From assembly GCF_011397635.1 (NCBI RefSeq), contig NC_064771.1:12959379-13023378 (forward strand): 64,000 bases of DNA, read 5' to 3'. Every line of letters starts with the position of its first letter. Positions within the stretch are counted from its first letter, which is position 1. This DNA comes from Epinephelus fuscoguttatus (lineage: Eukaryota; Chordata; Actinopteri; Perciformes; Serranidae). Below, piece after piece: positions 11,501-64,000 of this stretch. Both the position numbers and the translations under genes were made by a program. Below the pieces are notes generated by a model. The model had not been told where the DNA came from. It ran no database searches and saw only the letters and a program-made list of their open reading frames with translations.

Positions 11501-14230
11501 GGACCATCATATAGTCTATCATGTCTGTCGGCCAAGTCACGGCACAACTCCACGATCGCCTAATGTGACATTGTGACTGTCAGAATGGACAGAAATGTCA
11601 TGTAGTGAGAACCAAGCAGTATTGTATTGTTTAGATGTAATAGTAGGAGTTTGTGGACAGGAAGTGGTCTCCATACTGTTTCCTGAATAGTAGAAACAAA
11701 GGCTGAAAATACTGAGATCAAACTAAAACTCAGCCAAACTAAACTAAAACTAAGCAGCGCTGATCAAATATGAACCAAGACTCCTTTTCTGCATTGTCTA
11801 TTTCTAACCTCAAATGTTTTCAGAAACATTTTTAGCCTCATGTTTAAATATAATATTAGATCAGTGTGGTGCAGTGCATTGTTTTAGTTGTAGAGTTTCT
11901 ACCTCTTGAGCAAAAGCGAATGTCACCATCGTTTTCTTTTTTTCTCTGGTCATATAGCACCAATTTTAAAGTTTTTCCATTTTTCTACGGCACAGAAAGC
12001 CCAGTTTAATAAAAAGATCATCTTTCCAGAGGTGAAATACTTCTTTAATCATAAAGAGATTATGACTCAGCAGACCAAGACCCAGATCCTAGACCTCTCT
12101 CCAGCTGGTATTAGCATGTGACTGAAGTTGTTGGATTGTAACTAGATATGCAAAAACAATAAAATTCCACATCTTAAGGCACTAAAGATGTAAGGAGGAT
12201 GTTGCATCTAGAATGATCTGGTCAGACACACATCTAGCCACATTTAAAATGGTGGTGTAAATGAGTGTCATTACTCTAGTGCGCTGATAATGACTGCCAT
12301 GTTTACCTCCAGTTTTTAAAGAAGTCATTAATTTGAGAGGAAGTGACAGGGGCCCTGTTGAGTTTTCTGGTAAACAAAGTTTGTGTTTATATTCATTGTT
12401 ACTCTAAATGCATTGTGTGAATCCTTGGGGCCTAACAGACATGTTGAATGCATTTCCTTCCTTTTTGTCTAAACTGACCTGTGTACATTTTTCAGGATCA
12501 GAAGCTATTAAGATTCTTCCGCCATCTCTTTTTTTTAAATGGTGTGTTGTTTGCCTGGCTGTTGTTTTTTTCTGTGCACTAATTGAGTGATTGATAGATT
12601 TTTGAATCCCACATTGTTTACACCCAAGTTTACTTGTGTTTTTGTCGTGTTAAGCTACCTGTGAATATTGTAGAACTTACAAAAACAGGGACCCACTGCT
12701 GTTGTACTAACATATGTACCATCAGCCTACTTTTAACTGTGTGCTTGGCTTTTCAGAGAGCAGAGAGAGAGAACATTGGGGCACAGGAGAAAGGGATCCA
12801 AGGCCAAAAGACTTATTCTGCAGGTAAAGCTTTGAGCTCAATAAAAAGTTAAAGAATTACAGTTTTGTCTTTTTTTATACATTACTTTTTATCTGTTGAT
12901 ACAACTCTGTTTCCCTTTTCCATTCCCTTGCTGGCTATCCTGCCACCTCATCACTCTCCTCTATAACCAATTTGAGTGTTATTAAAATCATTCTGAATTT
13001 CAAGTCATAAAAGTTTAAATAGTCAAGCATTCTCTCTTTGATTTACATTCAGGACACTGTCTACACCATGGATCTCCGCAGTGCTCACAAGACTCCAGAG
13101 CAACCTCAGCCGCGCTTGCATCTCTCCCTGACACGCTCTCTGCTCCCTGAGGATGAGGATGAGTCGTACAGCACCCTAGACCCACGACCACAGCTGGAAC
13201 ATCGGAAGAGCAAACCCAGGAGGTCACAGTTCACGTGCCTTGACTCAAACCCTCCAAGTCCCACACAAGAGGACTGGGGAGAAGATGAAGATGAGGAAGA
13301 GGATAATGTAGAAAGTGAAGAGTATAGAGAGGAGGAGGAGGAGGAGGAGGAGAAAGAGGAGGCTCTGAAGACGACAACAGAGAAGAGCGGTGGCACTTTA
13401 AATGGTAAGTGTGTCAGTTGGTCAGCCAGTAGACTCTAATCACCATCACGACCCAGTTTACTTGACTCCTTGTGAACCTTCTAGTAGGCACGGCCATGCA
13501 AAGGCTTTTTTTTGACTGGGCATGCAACCAAAAACACATGAGCTGATTAAAGAGAAAATCATGCAGAGATCATGCAGACTCACTGAAGTCTCTGCTGCGT
13601 ATGTAGCAACAGCCAATAGGGTCTTCAGTCTGTCCCATAATGCAAAATTCCTTTACTTGGAAGTCTGACACCACAGCAGAAGAAAATCTTTAATAAATTA
13701 GTGGTGAATTTTTAGTTGGACAGAGTAGTAAAAGCCATTTTCATGATTTAAAGGTGAGTCATCACTAAAATTCCCCAAAATAATGACATGGATTGCATTA
13801 TGTCGCACTTCTGTCCTCCCTATCACCTCTGAAGCAATTAGAGCTGACTGTTCCTGCAGCCAAATATCTGCCTTTGTCACTTTCTAACATCTATCAGAGC
13901 AGAGACAATCTATCAAGGTCTGTCCAAAGACGTTAACTCAATAACAGAACACATGATAGGCTTGATGCAATCAACTCTACCCTCTTCTCCCTCTGTCTTT
14001 CTGTCTCCATGTTCCCATCTCACTCAGGACAGGAGAGGACAGTCGAGTGGAGCTCCACCGTCGGACCAGACGAGGTCACTGCATCAGAGAAGCCAGGCGA
14101 CGTCTGGAGGCCTGTCATCTGTCCAGGGGAGGTGACAGTCACAGATGTCACCCTCAACTCCCTCACAGTGACATTCCGAGAGTCAAGAGTGGCCAAAGGC
14201 TTCTTCAGAGACTGGGGCCTGGAGGTGTGA
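5550..14230 (+). CDS. cbx7: Chromobox protein 7 (CBX7), Polycomb PRC1 chromodomain subunit, six coding exons
   Basis: Exons: 5550-5618, 9689-9732, 10043-10108, 12757-12823, 13053-13404, 14028-14230. All junctions are GT-AG and keep frame; 801 nt give 266 residues (human CBX7 has 251). The N-terminal chromodomain (about residues 8-62) begins MELSAIGEQVFAVESI and carries the three cage aromatics F11, W32 and W35 that bind trimethyl-lysine, chiefly H3K27me3. It is followed by a basic AT-hook-like stretch ending KAKRLILQ and by VYTMDLRSAHK, which matches the CBX7 signature. An acidic linker fills about residues 155-187. The C-terminal Pc box (about residues 228-262, EVTVTDVTLNSLTVTFRES then GFFRD) docks RING1 proteins and closes the canonical PRC1 complex in the nucleus. 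CBX2/4/6/8 fit less well. Which teleost duplicate (a or b) it is cannot be decided. Intron 1 (4 kb) and intron 3 are filled with repeats. The gene is convergent with ep300. Confidence 0.95.
6380..6735. repeat. Dispersed fish SINE/LINE-tail repeat in cbx7 intron 1
   Basis: The segment contains phrases common to a very abundant teleost repeat: CTTCCTCCCACAGTCCAAAG, a GTGAATGTGAGCATGAATGG stretch, GTCTGGCGACCTGTGCAGGG and a terminal GATAAGCGGTTA followed by an ATGA tandem. A second copy in the opposite orientation is at 18695-19040 in this window. It has no intact ORF. Confidence 0.75.
7609..8083. repeat. MITE with TATAAAGATGGAC terminal inverted repeats
   Basis: The left end TAGCCTGCTTATAAAGATGG is matched in reverse complement at the right end (CCATCTTTATATACAGTCTA). 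The remaining roughly 430 bp is non-coding. Just upstream, 7520-7560 holds a fragment resembling the CAACTAATGATTATTTT element found again at 63462. Confidence 0.7.
9464..9640 (+). repeat. Truncated TTAA-type repeat (TTAAAGGGACAGTTCATCCC family)
   Basis: The left terminus TTAAAGGGACAGTTCATCCC and the interior GAGTGTTGGAGATATCGGC are characteristic of a widespread percomorph non-autonomous element. The right terminus is missing. It ends about 50 bp before cbx7 exon 2. Confidence 0.6.
10221..11850. repeat. TTAA-type repeat in cbx7 intron 3, split by a hAT insertion
   Basis: It begins TTAAAGGGATACTTTGCTG at 10221. A segment at 10465-10545 (GCTGATCAAATAT then CTGTTACTGCGTTGCCTATT) recurs diverged at 11750-11830. 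The intervening part contains the hAT-type element annotated separately. The right boundary is approximate. Confidence 0.55.
10550..11619. mobile_element. Non-autonomous hAT-like element
   Basis: The left terminus GCTGGGTTCACACTACATGA and the reverse complement of the right terminus (CTGCTTGGTTCTCACTACAT) form imperfect inverted repeats. Flanking 8-mers TATTTTAT (10542-10549) and TATTGTAT (11620-11627) match at 7 of 8 bases, the length expected of a hAT target duplication. No transposase remains. It lies inside an older TTAA-type repeat. Confidence 0.7.
13330..13353 (+). repeat. Coding GAG trinucleotide microsatellite in cbx7 exon 5
   Basis: A run of GAG codons encodes consecutive glutamates in the acidic linker between the chromodomain and the Pc box. 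It is in frame with both flanking exons, so length changes would alter the acidic run without breaking the gene. Confidence 0.7.
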
Positions 14231-14839: not shown

Positions 14840-17800
14840 TTTTATTTTTATTGAATTTTCAATTTAACACACAAATAGTCAACAAACATTAACCAAAAGA
14901 CATACAGAACAGAAAATTCCCACCTCAAACTAACAACAACAGGTGCTGCAGAGAAACAATCAAACTAAAAGAGAAGAAAACAAAAATGTTTATACCAAAT
15001 TTACATTCGTATGACAGGGAGCAAGTAAACAAGCAAGGGTACAAATACATGTAGCGGCCAGACATTGCCTTCTAGAGATGAGCCATTTAAAGTCTCTGTA
15101 AAAAGGAGTGCATAGGCTTCCAAATTCTCCAGAATTTGTCCGATTTGTGATTGAGGTCATGAGTCAATTTTTCCAGGGGGAGAAGGGATGATATTTGTGA
15201 TATCCACATGTCAGTCGTGGGGACCTGGGGGGTTGACCATCGTAGCAGAATACACTTCTTGGCCAAAAATAAAAGGATAATTAGCAGAGATTCAGTATCT
15301 GTGTCAAAAAGACTGTCCGGAATATGACTTAACAAAATGGAGCAGTCAATGAGAAATGTTTACCAGTAACCTCCTGAATCACTGAATGGATCCCATTCCA
15401 GAATGGCTGGATGCGGTCACATGACCAAAATAAATGAATAAGTGTACCTTTATGCTTTTTACATTTAAAACACATGTTTGAAGTGTTCGGGAACATTCTC
15501 TGGAGGCGAATAGGTGTAAAAAAAGATAGATGAAAAAGTTTGAAGTTATGTTCATATATAGAGATTGAAGTACATTTTGGAAAATTACAGATCTCAGACC
15601 AGTCTGTGGGACTAAATATCACCTCCAGATCGCGCTCCTACAACGGCTTCAAGGGGTCATAGGCTGAAGAGTCAGAATATTGCAAAACATAAATTTCAGA
15701 GATCAGTCCTTTGGGTGATTTGGCTGAGACCACCATGTTTTCCAGTTCTGACAATTCCATACGGATCATGTTTTTCTTTAATAAAGACTGTATAAAATGG
15801 CGAATTTGGAAGTACTTAAAAAGATCTTTGCGGGGAATGTCAGACTCAGCCCTGATTTGCTCAAACGGTTTCAAAGAATCAGAGATCAACAGGGCTGCAA
15901 AATCTGGCAAGCCCTTAGCAACCCAATCCATCAGGCTGATGCTCCTTATCTGAAGTGGTAAGTCAGGATTCAGTGCCAAGGGGGACCAAGTTGAAATAAA
16001 AGGTGGAATATTTAGGTATTTCTTCACATCCCTCCAGACTAGTAACGTATTGTATACGATCATATTATTTTTAAGGGAATTTATCTGATCTATATTGTTG
16101 ATGAAGGGGAGAGAATTTAGTCTTCTAGGGTGGCATGATAGGGTCTCAAGACCGATCCATAGAGAGTCTTTCCTATTCAGGAACCAGTTTGTCATCATTT
16201 TAAGTTGGGCTGACCAATAGTAGAATTGTAGATTGGGCAAAAATAAACCTCCCAGTTCCTTTGGCTTAGTGAGTTTAGAAAATCTAACTCTTTGATATTT
16301 ATTATTCCAGATATAATGGGAAATGCAAGAGTTGAGTGACTTAAAAAATACTGGGGTCAAATAGCATGGAAGATTTTGAAATAAATAGCTTAAGCAGGGA
16401 AGAATATTCATTTTTATAGTGTTGATTCTCCCAAGGAAAGAGGTTGGTAAAGAGGACCACTTTTTCAGATCTGCCTTAATTTTTTGAATTAAGGGGGAAT
16501 AATTGGTCTCAAATAAATTATTTAAATCAGGAGTAATAAAAACACCTAGATATCTGAAACCCCTCTTCAACAGCTGGAAAGGTGATTGTATGGTCATATT
16601 CTGGGGGATGTTAAAGGGTGTGGCGACCGATTTCCCTAGATTAATTTCATAACCTGTTAACATGCTAAACGAATGTATAGAGTCAAGGACTGCTGGAATT
16701 GATTTATCAGGATTCTTTAAGTACAAAAGAACATCGTCGGCAAATAGGGAAATGACATGGTTCCCTTCGCCCACTGTGATGCCATTTATATCGGGATGAG
16801 TTCTGATAGTCTCAGCCAAAGGTTCGATGAACAACGTAAACAATAAAGGCGACAGAGGGCACCCCTGCCTACAACCTCTGCGCACTGGGAAACCCTCGGA
16901 CAGCAAGCCGTTAGTGCTGACAGTGGCTATTGGGTCAGAATAAAGAATTTTAATTGCATTAATAAATTGGAGCCTAGACCGAATTTTTCTAATACAGGAA
17001 ATAAAAAAGACCATTCTACTCGGTCAAAGGCCTTTTCGGTTGAGTGACTTAAAAAATACTGGGGTCAAATAGCATGGAAGATTTTGAAATAAATAGCTTA
17101 AGCAGGGAAGAATATTCATTTTTATAGTGTTGATTCTCCCAAGGAAAGAGGTTGGTAAAGAGGACCACTTTTTCAGATCTGCCTTAATTTTTTGAATTAA
17201 GGGGGAATAATTGGTCTCAAATAAATTATTTAAATCAGGAGTAATAAAAACACCTAGATATCTGAAACCCCTCTTCAACAGCTGGAAAGGTGATTGTATG
17301 GTCATATTCTGGGGGATGTTAAAGGGTGTGGCGACCGATTTCCCTAGATTAATTTCATAACCTGTTAACATGCTAAACGAATGTATAGAGTCAAGGACTG
17401 CTGGAATTGATTTATCAGGATTCTTTAAGTACAAAAGAACATCGTCGGCAAATAGGGAAATGACATGGTTCCCTTCGCCCACTGTGATGCCATTTATATC
17501 GGGATGAGTTCTGATAGTCTCAGCCAAAGGTTCGATGAACAACGTAAACAATAAAGGCGACAGAGGGCACCCCTGCCTACAACCTCTGCGCACTGGGAAA
17601 CCCTCGGACAGCAAGCCGTTAGTGCTGACAGTGGCTATTGGGTCAGAATAAAGAATTTTAATTGCATTAATAAATTGGAGCCTAGACCGAATTTTTCTAA
17701 TACAGGAAATAAAAAAGACCATTCTACTCGGTCAAAGGCCTTTTCGGCATCGAGGGAGATTATCATTGCTGGGTCTTTATGAGGATTAAGATAGTGAGTA

Positions 17801-25974: not shown

Positions 25975-26990
25975 TCAGCCCAGCCAGACTTTTCTTTTCT
26001 TGAGAAAGGTCTGGTGAGCGAGACAATCCTCCATGGAGTCCAACATGTTTCTACAGTAGCCCAGAACAGACAAAACAAACACTGGCAAACACTGGCCGTC
26101 CAGGAGGCATCCTGATCAGATGCCTGAACCACCTCAACTGACACCTTTCGACTTGAAGGAGCAGTGGCTCTACTCCGAGCTCCCTCTGGATGTCAAAGCT
26201 CCATACCCTATCTCAAAGGCTGAGCCCAGCCACTCCACGGTGGAAACTTATCTGCGATCTCATTCTTTCGGTCACTACCCAGAGCTCATGACCATAGATG
26301 AGGGTTGGGATGTAGATGGACCAGTAATTGAAAGCTTTGCCTACCGCTCAGCTCCCTCTTCACCACAATAGTCCGGCGCAGCACCTGCATCACTGCAGAA
26401 GCCGCACCAAACCGCTGACCCATCTTGTGCTTCACTCTACCCTCACCTGTGAACAAGACCCCAAGATACTTTCACTTGAGGCAGTAACTCTTTCCCAACC
26501 CGAAGACTGCAATCCACCATTTTCCTGCAGAGAACCATGATTTGGAGGTGCTGACTCTCATCCCAACCACTTCACACTCGGCTGCAAACCGCCCCAGTGC
26601 TGGAGGTCACGGTGTGACAAAGCCAACAGAACCACATCATCTGCAAAAAGCAGAGACGCAATTCTGAAGTCCCCAAACCGTATCCCCCCCCCCCCCCAGC
26701 TGCGCTTTGAGATCCTGTCCATGAATATCACAAACAGGATCAGTGACAAGGGACAACCCTGGCGGAGGCCAACACCCACCGCGAACATGTCTGACTTTAC
26801 ACCGAGTATGTGGATGCAGCTGTCACTTTGGTCATACAGGGAACGGATGTCCTGTAGCAGAGGAGACTTCTGCAGATAATTGGAGAAGTGGAGAAGTTTC
26901 AGCTGGGTGTAATCGACAATCTTCACCACTAGACGCCAGTGAAGTCCCCTGTATCTTACACATTGGACCTTTAAATCATAGCCTGAACAA
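25975..26990. repeat. Dispersed element (TTAAAGGTCCAATGTGTAAG family) split by a LINE
   Basis: The left part contains ACATGTTTCTACAGTAGCCC at about 26042 and the right part GAGAAGTTTCAGCTGG to CACATTGGACCTTTAAA at 26884-26978. Both parts match the ends of the copies at 55440-56075 and 60290-61350. The LINE fragment at 26100-26870 interrupts it, so the LINE is the younger insertion. Confidence 0.65.
26100..26870 (-). mobile_element. Non-LTR retrotransposon fragment, reverse transcriptase region
   Basis: On the minus strand the translation carries GLRQGCPLSLILFVIFMDRI followed by ASLLFADDVVLLA, the RT catalytic block, in a different family from the L1-like element at 14840-18694. A run of 14 C at 26684-26697 encodes a glycine expansion. 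The frame is interrupted and both ends are missing. The plus-strand 83-codon frame at 26120-26371 is antisense to it. I do not assign a clade. Confidence 0.8.
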
Positions 26991-49000: not shown

Positions 49001-52000
49001 CGGTTACCAACTGTACTTACTAAATGATAAATTATAAGTAATGACACCTTTACTAATTATATATTTAAACTAGTCCATGTTTCTGTTTAAAAGTAAGGTT
49101 CTGGGCAGTCGTAAAAAATTTTGAGCAGTGACTGAAAGATAATGCGAGTTCTACACGACTATTGAGGAGAACAACACTGACTGTATGTACATACAGGATC
49201 TTATTTTTACCTGTTATGGCATTTACAACCATCTTGTTTAACGTAAATATCAGAATTATAAAAAAGAATGAAACAGTTCATATGCAATGTTAAACTATGT
49301 CCATAGGAATAGCACGATGATTGAAGGAGTGCCTACCTTGTTCATTGCTCCAGGCTGCTGGCCCCTCATCCCAGCCTGGCCCCCAGCTCCTTGCTGCTGC
49401 AGGGTCTCAGCCAACAGGTTGCTGTTGCCACCCATCCCCTGATTCCCAAAGCCCATCCTGGGGGAGCCATTCATCACCTGGCTTCCAATCATGCCTGGCT
49501 GCTGCTGTCCATTATTGCCTTTCTGCTGCGCTCCCATCATGGCCCTGTTCATGCCACCCATCATTCCAGCTGCAGCATTCTGTTGCTGCATCATGTTGGC
49601 CTGCTGCTGAGGGGAGAGGTGCTGCTGCTGCCCCTGGCCCATCATCTGCAGAGGCCCCTGGCCAGGGGATGCCTTCATGTTCGCCAAGTGTTGCCCCATG
49701 GCAGTGGGGCCTCCTGGGCTGCCCATGGCTCCTTGGTGCCCCTGTTGGCCCGAGGTGGGTGCCCCTGAACGCAAAAGCTCGGAAAGCTGTTTGTGCTTGG
49801 CCACCGCATCCTGGCCCCCGCCAGGACCAAGTCCAAGTCCCAGTCCTCCTGCCCCTCCACTGCCTCCTCCAGGACCCAGTCCTGCAGGTCCTCCTCCCAG
49901 AGTGGTGTGCAACTGGCTGAGATCCCCGCCATTGACCAGGCCTGGTTCATTGGAGCTGATGAGCTCGTCTGGGAGATCATGCTCCAAGTCAAACAGTGAG
50001 CCGAAATCTAAAATGGAGAAGAAATGCAAAGTTTAGGAGGGGGGAGTCAATGAGATGGGAGAGAAAGACGGGAAAGGTGAGAGGAAGACAATACAGGCCA
50101 CAGCCATGTTAAGCTGGTATAATCCTTCATTTTTCAGCATGACTGAGTGAAAATGCAATTGCATGCTTGACATTAAAAGTGATAAAAGCTGTTTAGAGAC
50201 AATTTTCTCCCATCAGAAATTAACAACATGCCATCAGGCACAACACAACTGAGCACTAAATTCCAGGTGAGATTCAGAGAATTTGTGAGTGTGAAGATGT
50301 GTGCACAAACACATATGCAAACACACACGCCCACATGGCCTTCTTGCACAGAGAATCCCTGACCAGTAAAATGATTCAACATGTTGCAAAGACAGGTTTG
50401 AACAGACAAGGTGACGAATGGTCCATTTCATATAAGTAACGCCACAAAATGGAGCCATATCGGTAGAACGCACATTCAGTGTCAGTCTGTATTCACTGTG
50501 TTAAAATGCACACAGCTTAGGCAAACAAATATGATGCATGTCATTTATCTTTATTTATTTTTATGAGGGACATCAAGACCATTTTTTCAAAATACAGAAT
50601 CTAATTAAGTCCTAAGTGTCACCTGCAGTGGTAATTTGCCATTCTTTTGTTTAATTCATTGTGAATATGTCAATGGGTTGATCTACAATGACAACAATCT
50701 GCAGCCCTGAGTTTTAATAATCTACATCTGAGAATTAAGAAATTAGTTATCAGCAATAAACACTATTTACAAACTGCTTTTTGAAGGTACAATCAGAGGA
50801 ACAGTATGCAAGAACTTATACCAATTTCTCATATCAATCTGCTCAATTTGTCACGTGCTTTTACTTCTCAACTCAACTATAAACACTCTGCATGGCAGTG
50901 TCACAAATAATAACGGAGGACAATAAATCTAAGTGCAAAAAATTGCACACCTTACGCACAGACCCCTTTCTTGATAGCACTGCACTGATCCTCAAAATAT
51001 ATCATGCAAGGTAACGTGAATGTGTGCACCGTCTGGGTGATTTAACCATAAAAGTCCCTTTGCACAGATGCTGACTGCCACGGTCAATATTAGCTGAGTG
51101 GACAGTCCAAGATGCAGCTGTTCGTGGTAAAATGAATGATCGAGTGACGAGACTTGGCTTATTATTTCCTGCTTGGAGCAATTTTTTGCTTGCTAACTTG
51201 ACTTGCTGGTTGATATCGCAGTGGCAGGACATGGCGCTGTCCATGCTCCACAGTTTGGCTCTCAGGCCACTACTCCAGCTGCTGTCACACGACATCCACA
51301 AAAAAACACAGCAACAATGCCAATTTGAGCTTAACAATTAGTCGGGACCGTGGGCCTAAAACTGTGTATCCCACAAGGCTAGCCTGACCATCGGCAACCT
51401 CTGCTTTCACCAACACTATGAACGGTAGCTAACATTAGTTGGGAAAGGGTCCGAGTTATGATGGGGCAACACAACAGATTGCTTTAGACGCTTGAAGCCT
51501 TGAAACTCAAATAACAGAATGGGGGGTAGCTGTAGCTGACTGTCAATTGGGCACAACTGTAACACACAAAAAACTTTATCATAAGTTAGCTTGGCATGGG
51601 GCTTATTATCAGCCCGGCTGAAGTAGCCATTAGACACGGGACCGTCAGTAAAGGACCCGCATTCGGTTAGCTAGCCTAGCGTTAGCCGAATGGCTAACAG
51701 AGCTACCTCCGGCTAAAATGGCTGTTAGCATGCGAGCTAGCTGGGGGAGCTGTTCCTCACGTCCGACACACACTCACTACTAGCAAGCTAACATTAGCAA
51801 GCTACGACAAAAACAGAAGAGTAATCCCGCGTCTTCTTCCCCTTTTAAGTGAACCCAAGCCGCCCAAAAATAACAAACTTAACGAATAACACAGTAATAA
51901 ATGATATCATAAAGCAATACTTGCCATTTCCATCGCTGGCGGAGGCGGAAAGTGCCGGAGAGGAGAGTTTAGGCCTCTTGGCTGAAGGCGGGCCAGAGTC

Positions 52001-52018
52001 CAGAACGTTCTCGGCCAT
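30101..52018 (-). CDS. ep300: Histone acetyltransferase p300 (EP300), 31 coding exons
   Basis: Exons in transcript order: 52018-51925, 50007-49337, 47655-47476, 47111-46781, 45980-45867, 45477-45244, 44860-44755, 44603-44478, 43875-43758, 43461-43320, 42621-42547, 42341-42256, 42017-41865, 41303-40797, 40484-40079, 39913-39795, 39466-39403, 39121-38946, 38090-38002, 36817-36737, 36461-36405, 36287-36210, 36092-36025, 35806-35656, 35350-35204, 35068-34955, 34829-34664, 34491-34324, 34188-34027, 33789-33508, 33361-30101. The sum is 8526 nt, 2841 residues, longer than human p300 (2414) with the same exon count. p300 rather than CBP is shown by [20 protein letters not shown] at the start and by [12 protein letters not shown] before TAZ2. 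This nuclear coactivator acetylates histones (H3K27, H3K18) and transcription factors. Domains: TAZ1 about 365-455, KIX 597-685, bromodomain 1118-1230, RING/PHD 1235-1358, HAT 1359-1735, ZZ 1735-1775, TAZ2 1794-1885, NCBD 2278-2322. Introns 1, 2 and 19 exceed 1 kb; I see nothing coding in them. The exon 14 acceptor could also be 6 nt further in (41297). Confidence 0.97.
33508..36025 (-). CDS. ep300: ep300 exons 24-30: catalytic HAT domain and start of ZZ
   Basis: Seven exons between these positions encode the acetyltransferase. Conserved landmarks include [51 protein letters not shown] and [20 protein letters not shown], the last holding the tryptophan and aromatic residues around the acetyl-CoA/lysine tunnel. 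Exons 28-29 encode the lysine-rich autoacetylation loop ([19 protein letters not shown]) that controls activity. Exon 30 ends in the first ZZ cysteines (CNECKHH, CTVCE). All key residues that I can check are present, so the enzyme should be active. The lower-numbered end of this block meets exon 31 across a short intron. Confidence 0.95.
33953..34022. repeat. Compound (TG)n(TA)n T23 C7 microsatellite
   Basis: On the plus strand a TG run, a TA run of about 13 units, 23 T and 7 C follow without interruption. The C run ends four bases before the exon 29 splice donor of ep300 (GT at 34026-34025 on the minus strand), so on the transcript a G run starts at intron position +5 and leads straight into poly(A) and UA repeats. 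Confidence 0.95.
36025..39913 (-). CDS. ep300: ep300 exons 16-23: bromodomain and RING/PHD module
   Basis: Exon 16 opens with [20 protein letters not shown]. Exons 17-18 carry the acetyl-lysine pocket region ([20 protein letters not shown] and the conserved [19 protein letters not shown], with the binding asparagine in NNAWLYN). Exons 19-23 encode the CH2 module: [48 protein letters not shown] and [20 protein letters not shown]. The module regulates HAT activity. One residue stands out: the sequence before the exon 16 donor reads PQLLCIP where human p300 and CBP have PQLLGIP. Confidence 0.95.
43320..44603 (-). CDS. ep300: ep300 exons 8-10: KIX domain
   Basis: The three exons encode [40 protein letters not shown] and [20 protein letters not shown], the three helices of the KIX fold that bind phosphorylated CREB, MYB and other activators. 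Residues known to line the CREB pocket (the Tyr in [11 protein letters not shown] and the preceding Ala/Tyr) are preserved. Splice phases (2, 0 and 1 at the ends of exons 8-10) keep the frame. Confidence 0.95.
45867..47111 (-). CDS. ep300: ep300 exons 4-5: TAZ1 domain
   Basis: The exons encode the TAZ1 zinc-binding fold starting [20 protein letters not shown], then [20 protein letters not shown] and [20 protein letters not shown]. Exon 5 contains [20 protein letters not shown] and [15 protein letters not shown]. All zinc ligands are present. TAZ1 binds HIF1A, CITED2 and STAT2 transactivation domains. Confidence 0.95.
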
Positions 52019-55439: not shown

Positions 55440-56075
55440 TCATCACCCTGGAAGGAGCTACTCCACACAGGGAGTAGGTCCTTGTCTACGGAGATCACCA
55501 TGCTGCACCACCATGTTTCTACAGTAGCCCAGAATGGACAAGCCAAACACTGGTTCTAGATAGGGCCATTCACATTTTTGCATCAGCCATCATAGTTAGC
55601 AGCTCCTCCTGGATAAGAGGGGGGAAAAAAAGATTATTTAATATGAAATTGCTTTATTTTTACCGGTTGAAATCACCAAGTCTGTTTGTTTAGGAGAGAA
55701 AGAGACCTCTGCAGGTAACCCAGCTCCTGCTAAAAACCTCCTGAATGTCTGGATCTTAAGTTAGCAGAGCAAAATGTGAGCAAACAATAGCAGGTGGCCC
55801 ATCTGCAACATGCTCACCAGCACTGAAGAAACACTGATTTGTAACGTAAAATGGTTTTATTCAGTGTTTTTACTGGGTTATATCATCGGATTTATTTGTT
55901 TTTGAGGGGAAGAGAGCTCTGTGGATAAATATGCTCCCTGTAAAAACCTCCTGAACAATAAAACACTGAAGGAATTCTAACCAGGAGAAGTTTCAGCTGG
56001 TTGCAATTTGCAATCCTCACCACTAGATGCCACTAAACCCCCCTAAATCTTTCACACTGTCCCCTTAAAGATGGA
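55440..56075. repeat. Dispersed element, same family as 60290-61350
   Basis: It contains ATGTTTCTACAGTAGCCCAG, two related internal GGAGAGAAAGAGACCTCTG / GGGGAAGAGAGCTCTGTGG segments each followed by AAAAACCTCCTGAA, and ends GAGAAGTTTCAGCTGG to CCTCACCACTAGATGCCACT, then CCCCTTAAAG. The copy at 60290 lies in the opposite orientation. Confidence 0.7.
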
Positions 56076-60289: not shown

Positions 60290-61350
60290 GAGGTTTTAAA
60301 GGTTTTATTAAAAGAACATTTTGTAAGATTTCGGGGGATTTAGTGGCATCTAGTGGTGAGGATTGCAGATTGCAACAAGCTGAAACTTCTCCCGGTTAGA
60401 ATTCATTAGGATGCTTTCAGACCTACAATTCGCTTGCTTTGGTCCATATCAGGGACTGATTTTGTTACAAAGCTGTATAATTGCCCAGAGTTGGTTCGTG
60501 TTCTCATGGCAGCATTTACAAGCAAACTACATGAAATGCCTTGTGTGAGAAAGCAGCTCTTGATTGGTCAGAATTTCCATGGAAAGATCCAGGAGGTAAA
60601 CAAAATGTTGAAGAAGAGTACACTCGCAAAATAAATGCAACACTTTCTAATGTCACAATGGAGGGACAATATACAGGTTGATTTTAGTGCTGGTCATCGT
60701 GTACTATATTGATTGCATTGTTCATTTTAGTCAGACCATACAGTTTGAAAACAAGGCGCGGCTCCAACTAGAAAACAATGTTTTGATGCATTGGATGTGC
60801 TGAATGTGCATATTAAGGCAGCACAGGAGGAGGCACACATTAATAATCCTCCAGGACTGTAACATGCTCATGCTTAGTTAACCCAAACGCTATGTAATGC
60901 GACTGCAGTTGGTACGGATCGAGGTCAGAACGTGTCCTCACCACAAATGAACTGCACCACAGTCTGGTTGAAACCAGACCACCTCCTCAGGAAGGTCTTG
61001 GTCTGATTGTTTTGATGCGCACCCAAGTGCGATTGCTGCCCAACAAAACTGCACTTCGGGGGCAAATGAACTTGACTTCAATTGAACTGAACCAAACAGA
61101 GCAGGTGTGAAAGCACCTTCAGTGTTCACTGTTCAGGTGTTTTTTACCAGGACCCAAATTATCTGCAGAGATCTCTTCCTCTCAAAAACGAATGGACTTG
61201 GTGATTTAAACCAGTAAAAACATTGAATAAAGCAGTCACAGGCATCACATAAATTAAAAAAAAAAATCAGCACCCCAAAGAAGATATACATATTATATTA
61301 TATTCCATTTCTGCCAAAATTATTCATATAAATCTGACATACTGGACCTT
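60290..61350. repeat. TTAAAGGTCC-type element carrying a nested hAT-like insertion
   Basis: The left part has GATTTAGTGGCATCTAGTGG and AACAAGCTGAAACTTCTCCC; the right part has GGTGATTTAAACCAGTAAAA and ends near ATACTGGACCTTTAAAA. An insertion at about 60409-61118 separates them. Its ends, ATGCTTTCAGACCT and AGGTGTGAAAGCACC, form an inverted repeat typical of hAT-like MITEs. Confidence 0.65.
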
Positions 61351-61559
61351 TAAAAAAGCAGGCTTATTTGACCAGGCAAGGCAACCACTAAAACATTACA
61401 ATTACTACATTTACCAATAACTTTTACTTTAACTATTAGTAAATTAAATAGTTTTAGCATTTCTATGCTCGTATATTAATTAATTTGAGATTTGAGGAAT
61501 ATCTCACAATGCTTCCTTCCAATTCCTCTAAAACATCATCTCCCATGATGCTGGAAGTG

Positions 61560-61700
61560 CGTAAAGAAACAATGACGTCAAAAGATAGGCGACCACAACA
61601 GAGTGCCGAGGACTGCGAAGACACAGCTGAACTCACACCGAAATAGTTTTCCAGTTGTGTTATACATTTCAGTGAGTGCCTAAAGAGTATCAGCATATAT
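61560..61700 (+). promoter_or_regulatory. l3mbtl2: Promoter and first non-coding exon of l3mbtl2 (predicted)
   Basis: A perfect cAMP response element, TGACGTCA, is at 61573-61580. About 120 bp later a strong donor, ATATAT|GTAAGT, occurs at 61701. A CAG acceptor at 62142-62144 (CTTTCCCCTGCAG) starts a second exon that contains the coding start at 62253. GTTAGC hexamers follow at 61771 and 62049. Exon 1 limits are inferred. Confidence 0.4.
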
Positions 61701-62252
61701 GTAAGTAACCACTGAAAGCAAAAACAAGTGAACTGCTGCGTCGTAACTAAACAAACGTGCTATTAGCACTGTTAGCATTTAGCCTGCATTTACAGTAGCG
61801 TGTGAGCTAGCCACACTTTTGTTTATGTTTTGACCAGCCTGTTTCTAAGCCTTTTGGCTGTGACAATTTGCTTTAAAAGTGATTTCAACAGCTAAATTCT
61901 GTGTTCATTATTTTATTTCATATATGTTTATCTTGTATGCACTTATTTGACAGATAACTGCTGGTTTGTAGAAGACTGTCTTGCCTAGAAATGAACATTT
62001 GCTCCTGCTGACCAGCTGTTTTCTCCTCTCTGGTGCATAGAGATTGGTGTTAGCTAAAAGTAGGTGTTACAGAATGTATTTTCTGGGTTAGACTAAGAAT
62101 TTTGTCTGCTATTTGTGACATGCATTCATCACTTTCCCCTGCAGAGCCCACAGAACAACAGCCTCCAGCTTTAAAGAAGGACAGATGCATTGGCTGTAGA
62201 TCCTGCTTTGCACTGTGAGTCTCTAGTGATCCTCTTGTGAGCAGAGCACAGG

Positions 62253-63216
62253 ATGCCTTACCACTGTGTGGCCTATGGATGTGGCAAAACTGCAGAAGAT
62301 GGTGCGACGCTCTTTAAATTCCCCAAGGACCATGAGGAGTTTCGCAAATGGGAGAAGCAGGTCCAGCGCACCCGCAGCCAGTGGGTCGCCACACCCAACT
62401 CTCACCTCTGCAGCGAGCATTTTGGCAGGGAGTACTTTGAGCCAAGAGCACCCATGGGGGCTCTGAAGCTAAAGCCAGGAGCTGTTCCCACAGTGTTCCT
62501 CCGTCCACACTGTCTCTCCTGCAAAGGAGTGGGATGTAGTAGCTGCCTGCCAGCTATCCAACGGCGGGGCTTTACAGCTGAACCAAGAGAGTGTGCTGTA
62601 AGTGTGAGTAGTTATTATTACGGAGAAAGGTCACTGCAGAGAGACAAAGAGAGTTTCTGCCATTCTGAGAGCTTTAAACAAACCTCTTGCTTGTTTACAT
62701 GTATGATGTAAAGACACATTCAAGCTTTCCATTTATCACTGTGTTTTTTTCTCTTCTCAGGCACCAGACAATGAAATGCCCTTTCAGTTTGATGATACTG
62801 ATGGAAGAGGTCATGAAGAACATCTGACAAGAGGAGTGACAAAGGCGGCGGAAAAAAACAGAGAAGAACGACCAGGTGAGGTGCAAATGATTAAACTGTA
62901 TGTCCATTTTCTGTCTCTGTAATTAAATGCTATTTAAAGTCAAAGTCAAAATGAGTGATGGAAGGTCTCAGACGATGGTTCAAAATAAAATAAAAATCCC
63001 ATCAGTATAAACTGTAGGAACTGTGATAAAATTAAATGATGATTTATACTAAATGTGTTTACTTTATTATTTATTTTTACAGTGGTGTGTGAGATGTGTG
63101 GCACCGCCGGCACTAGTAGCAGCTTCTTTTCAAAGACCAAGCGTTTCTGCAGTATATCTTGTTCACGCTCTTATTCATCAAACTCCAAGAAGTCCTCCAT
63201 ATTGGCACGTCTGCAG
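62253..63216 (+). CDS. l3mbtl2: L3MBTL2-type Polycomb protein with N-terminal THAP domain (5' part; continues beyond window)
   Basis: Three coding exons, 62253-62597, 62761-62875 and 63083-63216, join at GT-AG sites in phases 0, 1 and 0. Exon 1 encodes a complete THAP C2CH DNA-binding zinc finger: ligands C5, C10, C53 and H56, invariant P24 and W33, F57 and the closing LKPGAVPTVF box. A second cysteine group follows (CLSCKGVGCSSC). Exon 2 is a short acidic linker. Exon 3 encodes the FCS zinc finger, CEMCG through FFSKTKRFCSISCSRSYSSN then KKSSILARLQ, almost identical to human L3MBTL2 after the first cysteines. Four MBT repeats would lie to the right. L3MBTL2 is a PRC1.6 subunit that compacts chromatin. 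Adjacency to ep300 agrees with human 22q13. Human L3MBTL2 has no THAP domain that I know of, so this start may represent a lineage-specific fusion. A possible next acceptor lies at 63993-63994. Confidence 0.85.
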
Positions 63217-63461
63217 GTGAGAAAAAATATGTGATGTTGCAGCACATAAACAATGCTGAATAATGAGTGTGTGTGCTGCCATGTTATGTAGGTGGCATCT
63301 CATGTAGAGGATGTATGAGTTTTATTTTTCACCCCAAATACTTCTTAAAAGCAAATATTTGTACTCTTTTACATAATGCACATTACAATATAAGCCATTT
63401 TTATTCTATACTGGGAATATTTGCTGAGCATAAACCTGTTTTTACAGCATTTCACACAGTA

Positions 63462-63800
63462 GGGCTGCAACTAATGATTATTTTTTATCGATAAATCTGC
63501 AGATGATTTTCTTGATTAACTGTCTGGGTTATAAAATGTCAGAAAATAGTGAAAAATTTCTGTCCCAGGTTCTCAAAGTCCAAGGTGATGACTTTAAATG
63601 TTTTGTTTCATTAGTCCAAAGCCTAAAGATATTCTGTTTAATATGACATTAAACAGAGAAAAGCAGATCAGTGTTTCTGAGATGCTAGAAACAGCATTTT
63701 TTCATACTTTAACAATTAATTGCTTATCAAAATAGTTTGTCATTTTCTGTTAATTGACTAATAGATTGGTCAACTTATTGTTTATGGTCTAACTCACAGC
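63462..63800. repeat. hAT-type MITE in l3mbtl2 intron
   Basis: It begins TAGGGCTGCAACTAATGATT and contains TATAAAATGTCAGAAAATAG and CCAAAGCCTAAAGATATTC, phrases of a very abundant fish MITE. The right end (TAACTCACAGCTGTAAT) is a decayed inverted copy of the left. It is non-coding. Confidence 0.7.
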
Positions 63801-64000
63801 TGTAATCTTTATTTTTTGAGTTAAACACACAAATAACAGGACTAACCGGACCACTAGGTGGCACCTATGAGGCATTTGTAGTTAATTGCTTTGCTAAATT
63901 AAATAATTACGCTAACTTGGCACTTTGGTTACTTTACACATTTTTTGACAAGGCCTTCCTCACACCGTCGTCTTTGTGTCTGTGATTTCATCAGGTCTGT

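Follow-up and report, generated by a model that had tools for sequence, protein, structure and literature searches.

A THAP domain in frame with the FCS finger and MBT repeats in an l3mbtl2 gene model of Epinephelus fuscoguttatus

PRC1.6 is a silencer of germline and cell-cycle genes whose route to its sites is only partly understood. Mammalian L3MBTL2, a subunit of this complex, is treated as a histone reader. In the portions of two papers that were available, the mammalian protein is described as having an N-terminal FCS finger followed by MBT repeats, and a THAP domain is absent from that description (PMC8489530, PMC5806899). According to sections of the second paper, PRC1.6 reaches DNA through MGA/MAX and E2F6, with L3MBTL2 as a histone-interacting protein (PMC5806899). 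The same sections report that in human cells L3MBTL2 contributes to the choice of PRC1.6 sites, that it promotes binding at one particular group of these, and that L3MBTL2 binding is lost genome-wide in cells without MGA (PMC5806899).

In the current study, a stretch of 64 000 nucleotides from Epinephelus fuscoguttatus (C20:12959379–13023378), referred to below as the window, was analysed together with the remainder of the genome (1.047 Gb, 26 contigs). Near the end of the window begins a gene that resembles mammalian L3MBTL2 in its FCS finger, its four MBT repeats and its EP300 neighbour (human L3MBTL2 also adjoins EP300). It differs in the presence of a THAP domain, which is lacking from the mammalian protein as described in the passages available. 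Among the matches listed in a search of the open-access literature, no title or abstract opening describes a THAP–L3MBTL2 fusion; subscription papers and protein databases were outside its scope. Among the open papers containing both words, those examined show, in the passages concerned, tables of genes or variants, a table of expression values, or ‘thap’ as thapsigargin. Word searches of two papers on fish Polycomb genes found L3MBTL2 mentioned and no ‘THAP’ (PMC7230241, PMC9916924), and a similar search of a sea cucumber genome preprint, which classes THAP genes by their added domains, found no ‘MBT’ (PMC13228809). The pairing may already be visible in automatic annotation.

Table 1. Positions of features at the l3mbtl2 locus and at two E2F6-like genes. 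Unprefixed numbers are positions in the window or, beyond 64000, its continuation.
Feature	Position	Strand	Basis or remarks
EP300 first coding exon	51929–52018	−	Head to head with l3mbtl2; position and N-terminal sequence
Probable l3mbtl2 promoter with 5′ untranslated exon	61501–61700	+	CpG ratio, CRE-like site, possible donor after 61700
Probable 5′ untranslated part of THAP-A exon	62145–62252	+	Preceded by an acceptor ranking in the top 0.8% of AGs
THAP-A exon	62253–62597	+	Predicted first coding exon, residues 1–115; phase 0 donor GTAAGT; PF05485 match
Linker exon	62761–62875	+	Residues 116–153 plus the first base of codon 154; open frame, with an in-frame ATG (62776)
FCS zinc finger exon, L3MBTL2	63083–63216	+	PF21319 and 2w0t matches; acceptor and donor ranks
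Intron 3, start	63217–64000	+	Continues to 69105; contains the THAP-B exon (L009–L010)
THAP-B exon	L009:4258–4584 (66258–66584)		PF05485, E 1.3e-15; own ATG
E2F6-like gene 1 with THAP	ATG at C11:31154674	−	L030; THAP halves join in phase at KDPARVK/VWLAAL
E2F6-like gene 2 with THAP	ATG at C11:1193480	+	L034–L035; THAP halves join in phase at TDPARVK/VWLAAL

The THAP-A exon and the gene downstream

A complete THAP C2CH finger had been read in the THAP-A exon from sequence alone, and a Pfam scan bears this out: PF05485 matches over its whole length (profile 1–87 of 87, E 4.6e-17), and the score is 63 bits (cut-off, 23.9). The domain occupies residues 5–82 of the exon product. All the zinc ligands are present (C5, C10, C53 and H56), as are P24, W33, F57 and an AVPTVF box, and the product therefore has the ligands, the conserved P, W and F and the AVPTIF-type box by which THAP domains are recognized. 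The bare C2CH pattern is non-specific, since it occurs five times in the window and five times in 20 mononucleotide shuffles taken together; combined with an AVPTxF-type box, it occurs once in the 64-kb window and in none of the 20 shuffles. Directly after the domain, at 62511–62546 (residues 87–98), there is a CxxCxGxGCxxC motif, possibly another site for zinc. NCBIfam gave no match to the THAP-A or THAP-B exon. An AlphaFold prediction for the THAP-A exon alone had a mean pLDDT of 41.2 and a pTM of 0.26. Viral and prokaryotic contigs yielded 11 and 93 pattern matches, respectively, none of which was confirmed by tblastn as a relative, as expected for a fish gene.

The THAP-A, linker and FCS exons, of 345, 115 and 134 bases, join in frame as had been proposed: the introns are GT-AG, the junction phases are 0, 1 and 0, and 198 codons are open. 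The splice sites had been described as perfect, which holds for the GT and AG dinucleotides and for the linker exon, where both sites are strong (acceptor in the top 0.01%, donor in the top 0.04%), but less well for the THAP-A donor (GCT/GTAAGT, the exon ending in T), which ranks within the top 4.5% of GTs, or for the FCS acceptor, in the top 3.3% of AG sites. The FCS donor is in the top 0.11%. All such ranks are approximate. The donor of l3mbtl2 exon 13 is weaker than that of THAP-A, and an alternative donor-like GT six bases beyond the latter (after 62603) would preserve the frame. Openness of the frame does not by itself settle the matter: 62241–62708 stays open in 2 of 2000 shuffles, and when the final 3 kb were shuffled 300 times the longest frame reached up to 223 aa (mean 96), compared with 156 observed.

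The third exon had been called unmistakably the L3MBTL2 FCS finger. It matches PF21319 (E 1.9e-17) and, among solved structures, the L3MBTL2 finger 2w0t (E 7.6e-16; the next is PHC1 at 0.0055), and to this extent the identification stands. The finger alone, however, cannot separate L3MBTL2 from MBTD1, since it is identical to human L3MBTL2 (2w0t) at 30 of 36 positions and to an mbtd1-like finger of the same genome at 27 of 36, while that mbtd1-like finger is itself identical to human L3MBTL2 at 31 of 36.

The identity of the gene is decided by the MBT repeats. The 40 kb from window position 62001 onwards were taken as stretches L009–L012, and a gene model was built from L009–L010. It has 17 coding exons (window-equivalent 62253 to 76684), GT-AG boundaries at 16 of 16 introns and one terminal stop, and encodes 856 aa; acceptors are poor at exons 8, 17 and 11 (top 37%, 13% and 10%, respectively). 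A THAP domain, an FCS finger and four MBT repeats lie within a 735-aa stretch that excludes the last exon. Over residues 220–663, the best solved relatives are L3MBTL2 (3cey, 669.5 bits; 3f70, 668.5 bits), compared with 566.7 bits for MBTD1 (4c5i). The four repeats are thus nearer to L3MBTL2 than to MBTD1, which rules out the latter and identifies the gene as l3mbtl2. The MBT repeats of Sfmbt match the same product at 453 bits.

The neighbourhood agrees with this assignment. Matches to zf-TAZ (in two pieces) and ZZ lie on the minus strand between 30 and 52 kb of the window, in a gene that we take to be EP300, and which is thus found beside l3mbtl2. The window holds another Polycomb gene as well as these two, at 13937–14227, where there is a CBX-family C-terminal motif (CBX7_C, E 3.6e-15). 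A genome scan gave nine FCS matches, of which eight were examined, the ninth being at C7:4.68 Mb. Two further fingers of L3MBTL2/MBTD1 type, at C20:6.11 Mb and C19:7.81 Mb, each lie at an MBT cluster of their own; these loci are presumably mbtd1 copies, and l3mbtl2 therefore looks single-copy. On visual inspection, the MBT clusters other than that of l3mbtl2 lack a THAP domain within 100 kb among the THAP matches listed (150 of 1861 candidates).

The THAP domain and the MBT repeats are thus linked by one open frame whose splice phases match. It is quite likely, judged from the sequence, that coding in fish l3mbtl2 begins with the THAP-A exon and that the gene is a fusion. The main product, of 856 aa, would consist of the THAP domain, a linker, the FCS finger, four MBT repeats and an acidic tail.

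The start of the gene, THAP-B and shorter transcripts

The l3mbtl2 promoter, with a 5′ untranslated exon, probably lies at 61501–61700. The CpG observed/expected ratio of 0.73 at 61501–61750 is the highest of the sixteen 250-base windows between 60001 and 64000. In 500-base windows between the EP300 start and the FCS exon, the ratio peaks at 61501 (0.54), and the EP300 start region reaches 0.75. The peak at 61501 is immediately 5′ of the THAP-A exon. The region also contains a CRE-like TGACGTCA at 61573, one of four in the window, and the possible donor ATAT/GTAAGT, ranked in the top 3.3% of GTs. In the putative untranslated part of the THAP-A exon, the AG before 62145 outranks those before 62245 (top 7.4%) and 62252 (top 25%), and an upstream ATG at 62185 opens a frame of four codons. 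Close upstream of the putative promoter are dispersed repeats (60308–60407, 61116–61231 and 55657–56068) that are 79–88% identical; a relative of these at 26890–26975 is 78–79% identical.

The sequence-only reading had offered, as an alternative, that a THAP gene and l3mbtl2 share the locus. There would then be one or two short THAP genes on the same strand with poly(A) ends in introns, and l3mbtl2 would start, THAP-less, at ATG 62776. Features of the locus are compatible with this. The unspliced THAP-A frame ends at a stop at 62709–62711, AATAAA occurs in intron 2 at 62984 and 62989, and the in-frame ATG is available, so that a THAP-less L3MBTL2 protein starting there is possible. However, an out-of-frame ATG at 62771 precedes it, and the upstream CpG ratio peaks before THAP-A. 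In addition, no acceptor between 61500 and 63980 is above the listing threshold except that at 62761. A separate terminal exon that would close an independent THAP gene, which had been named as an observation that would count against fusion, is therefore not seen there in any strong form.

A second THAP exon, THAP-B, bears on the same question. It encodes a THAP domain differing from THAP-A and lies in the intron between the FCS and MBT exons. The two highest CpG ratios of L009, in 250-base windows, are found just upstream of it (1.22) and over it (0.80), and the upstream region contains an E-box, CACGTG, and CGCCATTT, which we take to be a YY1-like motif. The GTAAGT donor of the exon is in phase 0 and ranks in the top 1.2%, and exon 4 of l3mbtl2 starts in phase 0; when the two are joined, skipping the FCS exon, a THAP–MBT frame of 767 aa is open. 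A second promoter in intron 3 would probably give a 767-aa isoform in which THAP-B replaces THAP-A and the FCS finger.

Two points at THAP-B would also fit separate genes. The acceptors at L009:5059 and 6974 are about equal in score to that of exon 4, and THAP-B could therefore join elsewhere. If left unspliced, it reaches a stop two codons past the donor, and there is an AATAAA at L009:4700, which makes a short THAP-only mRNA a real alternative; with the signals in intron 2, such mRNAs are possible from both THAP exons. On the other side, the donors of both THAP exons match the phase of the next l3mbtl2 exon, and this, with the open 17-exon frame, favours fusion. Separate genes are considered improbable, and the fused gene is preferred.

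THAP domains elsewhere in the genome

The genome is rich in THAP stretches (1861 candidates at first look, of which 150 were scored), and many of these are perhaps transposon-borne. A transposon THAP might therefore lie near l3mbtl2 by chance, or the arrangement might be an artefact of assembly. The window does contain a perfect tandem duplication of 709 bp (16331–17747, 100% identity) in a LINE reverse transcriptase, which may be an assembly error. However, about 0.03 THAP domains would be expected by chance in a gene of 14.4 kb, even at 1861 candidates per 1.047 Gb (hand arithmetic), and THAP-A and THAP-B are both intact, on the same strand and in the right phase. Neither has a near copy. 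For THAP-A, with 143 of 143 candidates scored, there are 31 other matches; the top-scoring one has 38% identity (42.4 bits), and identity rises no higher than 43%, over partial length. For THAP-B, with 150 of 1036 candidates scored, the best-scoring other match has 48% identity, and 52% is the highest identity among the other 149 listed. This suggests that both are old or unique, and the multiple near-identical copies that mark a recently active THAP transposon were not found among these matches. An artefact or chance proximity is accordingly regarded as extremely improbable. Scattered THAP frames of about 114 aa, roughly 34–38% identical to THAP-B, are numerous genome-wide among the matches listed and are probably a repeat family.

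Clouaire, in 2005, reportedly described a THAP domain in zebrafish E2F6. In the current genome, 16 E2F-domain matches fall, by count, at 13 loci. Six of these loci were covered by 16 stretches of 10 kb, which were scanned with a small home-made THAP profile. Five weak matches were found outside l3mbtl2, of which four form matching pairs at two E2F genes of C11 (13.4–19.0 bits); the fifth is at L033:2623–2739 (21.0 bits). The scores in the pairs are weak because the THAP domain is split, and the claim rests on a Pfam scan of the joined exons, which gave E 5.8e-14 for the gene at C11:31154674 and 1.4e-12 for that at C11:1193480. E2F exons (E 3.7e-24 and 1.2e-20) lie about 1 kb and 5.7 kb downstream of the respective THAP exons on the same strand. 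A later exon of the first gene, with a similar one in the second, presumably fits E2F6.

The other four of the six loci showed no convincing THAP domain at the sensitivity of the home-made profile. Twelve loci of 3 kb (seven other FCS and five other E2F) gave no match to it, and upstream exons could lie beyond the 3 kb. The E2F loci at C2:22.07 Mb and C8:27.22 Mb were set aside, their motifs being taken as E2F4/5-like and E2F3-like, respectively.

The two C11 genes thus share with l3mbtl2 an upstream THAP domain on what is presumably a PRC1.6 subunit. In the E2F6-like genes, however, the domain is split by an intron after PARVK, whereas THAP-A and THAP-B are each encoded by a single exon. Aligned with THAP-A, the E2F6-like THAP domains share 12 residues of 36 in one alignment and 16 of 52 in the other, and this low similarity indicates that the captures were probably separate. 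Two kinds of PRC1.6 subunit therefore probably carry THAP domains in this fish, which suggests recurrent recruitment rather than accident. A broader proposal is made tentatively, at a little under an even chance. THAP-A and THAP-B would be alternative first coding exons with their own promoters, giving isoforms that keep or lose the FCS finger; together with the E2F6-like genes, these would provide PRC1.6 with several THAP readers, and THAP capture would have repeatedly rewired the destination of the complex.

Predicted recruitment and comparison with known systems

It had been suggested that fish L3MBTL2 may carry a DNA-binding domain of its own. The single open frame from THAP through FCS to the four MBT repeats supports, as a gene model, the structural part of that suggestion; the direct recruitment route proposed with it can be put forward conditionally. 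Most likely, the THAP finger would let L3MBTL2 read DNA sequence, and PRC1.6 would gain an extra recruitment route beside MGA/MAX, E2F6/DP and methyl-lysine binding. If the gene is a fusion, DNA-guided recruitment of PRC1.6 by the THAP domain is somewhat more likely than not.

THAP-A and THAP1 are identical in 31 of 86 alignment columns. THAP1 contacts DNA at Lys24, Arg29, Arg42, Phe45 and Thr48. In the alignment, Lys24, Arg42 and Thr48 are kept in THAP-A, Phe45 is replaced by Trp and Arg29 by His. DNA binding by THAP-A is therefore plausible, and its motif is likely to be different.

The domain might alternatively be a domesticated leftover within the fused gene, serving protein contacts, dimerization or nothing, rather than sequence-specific recruitment. 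The two substitutions at THAP1 contact positions would be in keeping with this. So would the human data available in part, in which MGA loss abolishes L3MBTL2 binding, so that L3MBTL2 alone may not suffice (PMC5806899). This loss also implies that the THAP domain may stabilize recruitment rather than found it. The intact zinc ligands and AVPTVF box, and the lysine, arginine and threonine kept at three of the five contact positions, argue against a leftover, which, given fusion, is the less likely reading. If DNA-guided recruitment holds, the built-in DNA reader of fish L3MBTL2 would amount to a natural experiment in re-addressing a Polycomb complex.

THAP1 and THAP2 have a zinc finger of the same family as THAP-A and are, to our knowledge, stand-alone THAP proteins without MBT repeats or an FCS finger. 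LIN-15B of Caenorhabditis elegans is likewise a separate polypeptide and not a fusion with an MBT protein. In the part of the source available, it is described as a THAP DNA-binding protein that, with E2F/DP/RB-type DRM factors, is implicated in the silencing of germline genes in the soma (PMC5734877). In PhoRC, Drosophila Sfmbt, a four-MBT FCS protein, pairs with the DNA binder Pho. For L3MBTL2 itself, a fragment comprising residues 170–625 is listed, in the portion of the paper available, as binding YY1 199–228 by SPR (PMC10487186). Both pairings resemble the fish protein in bringing a four-MBT FCS protein together with sequence-specific DNA binding. In these, however, the DNA binder is a separate protein, whereas in fish L3MBTL2 it would be part of the same chain, if the THAP domain binds DNA.
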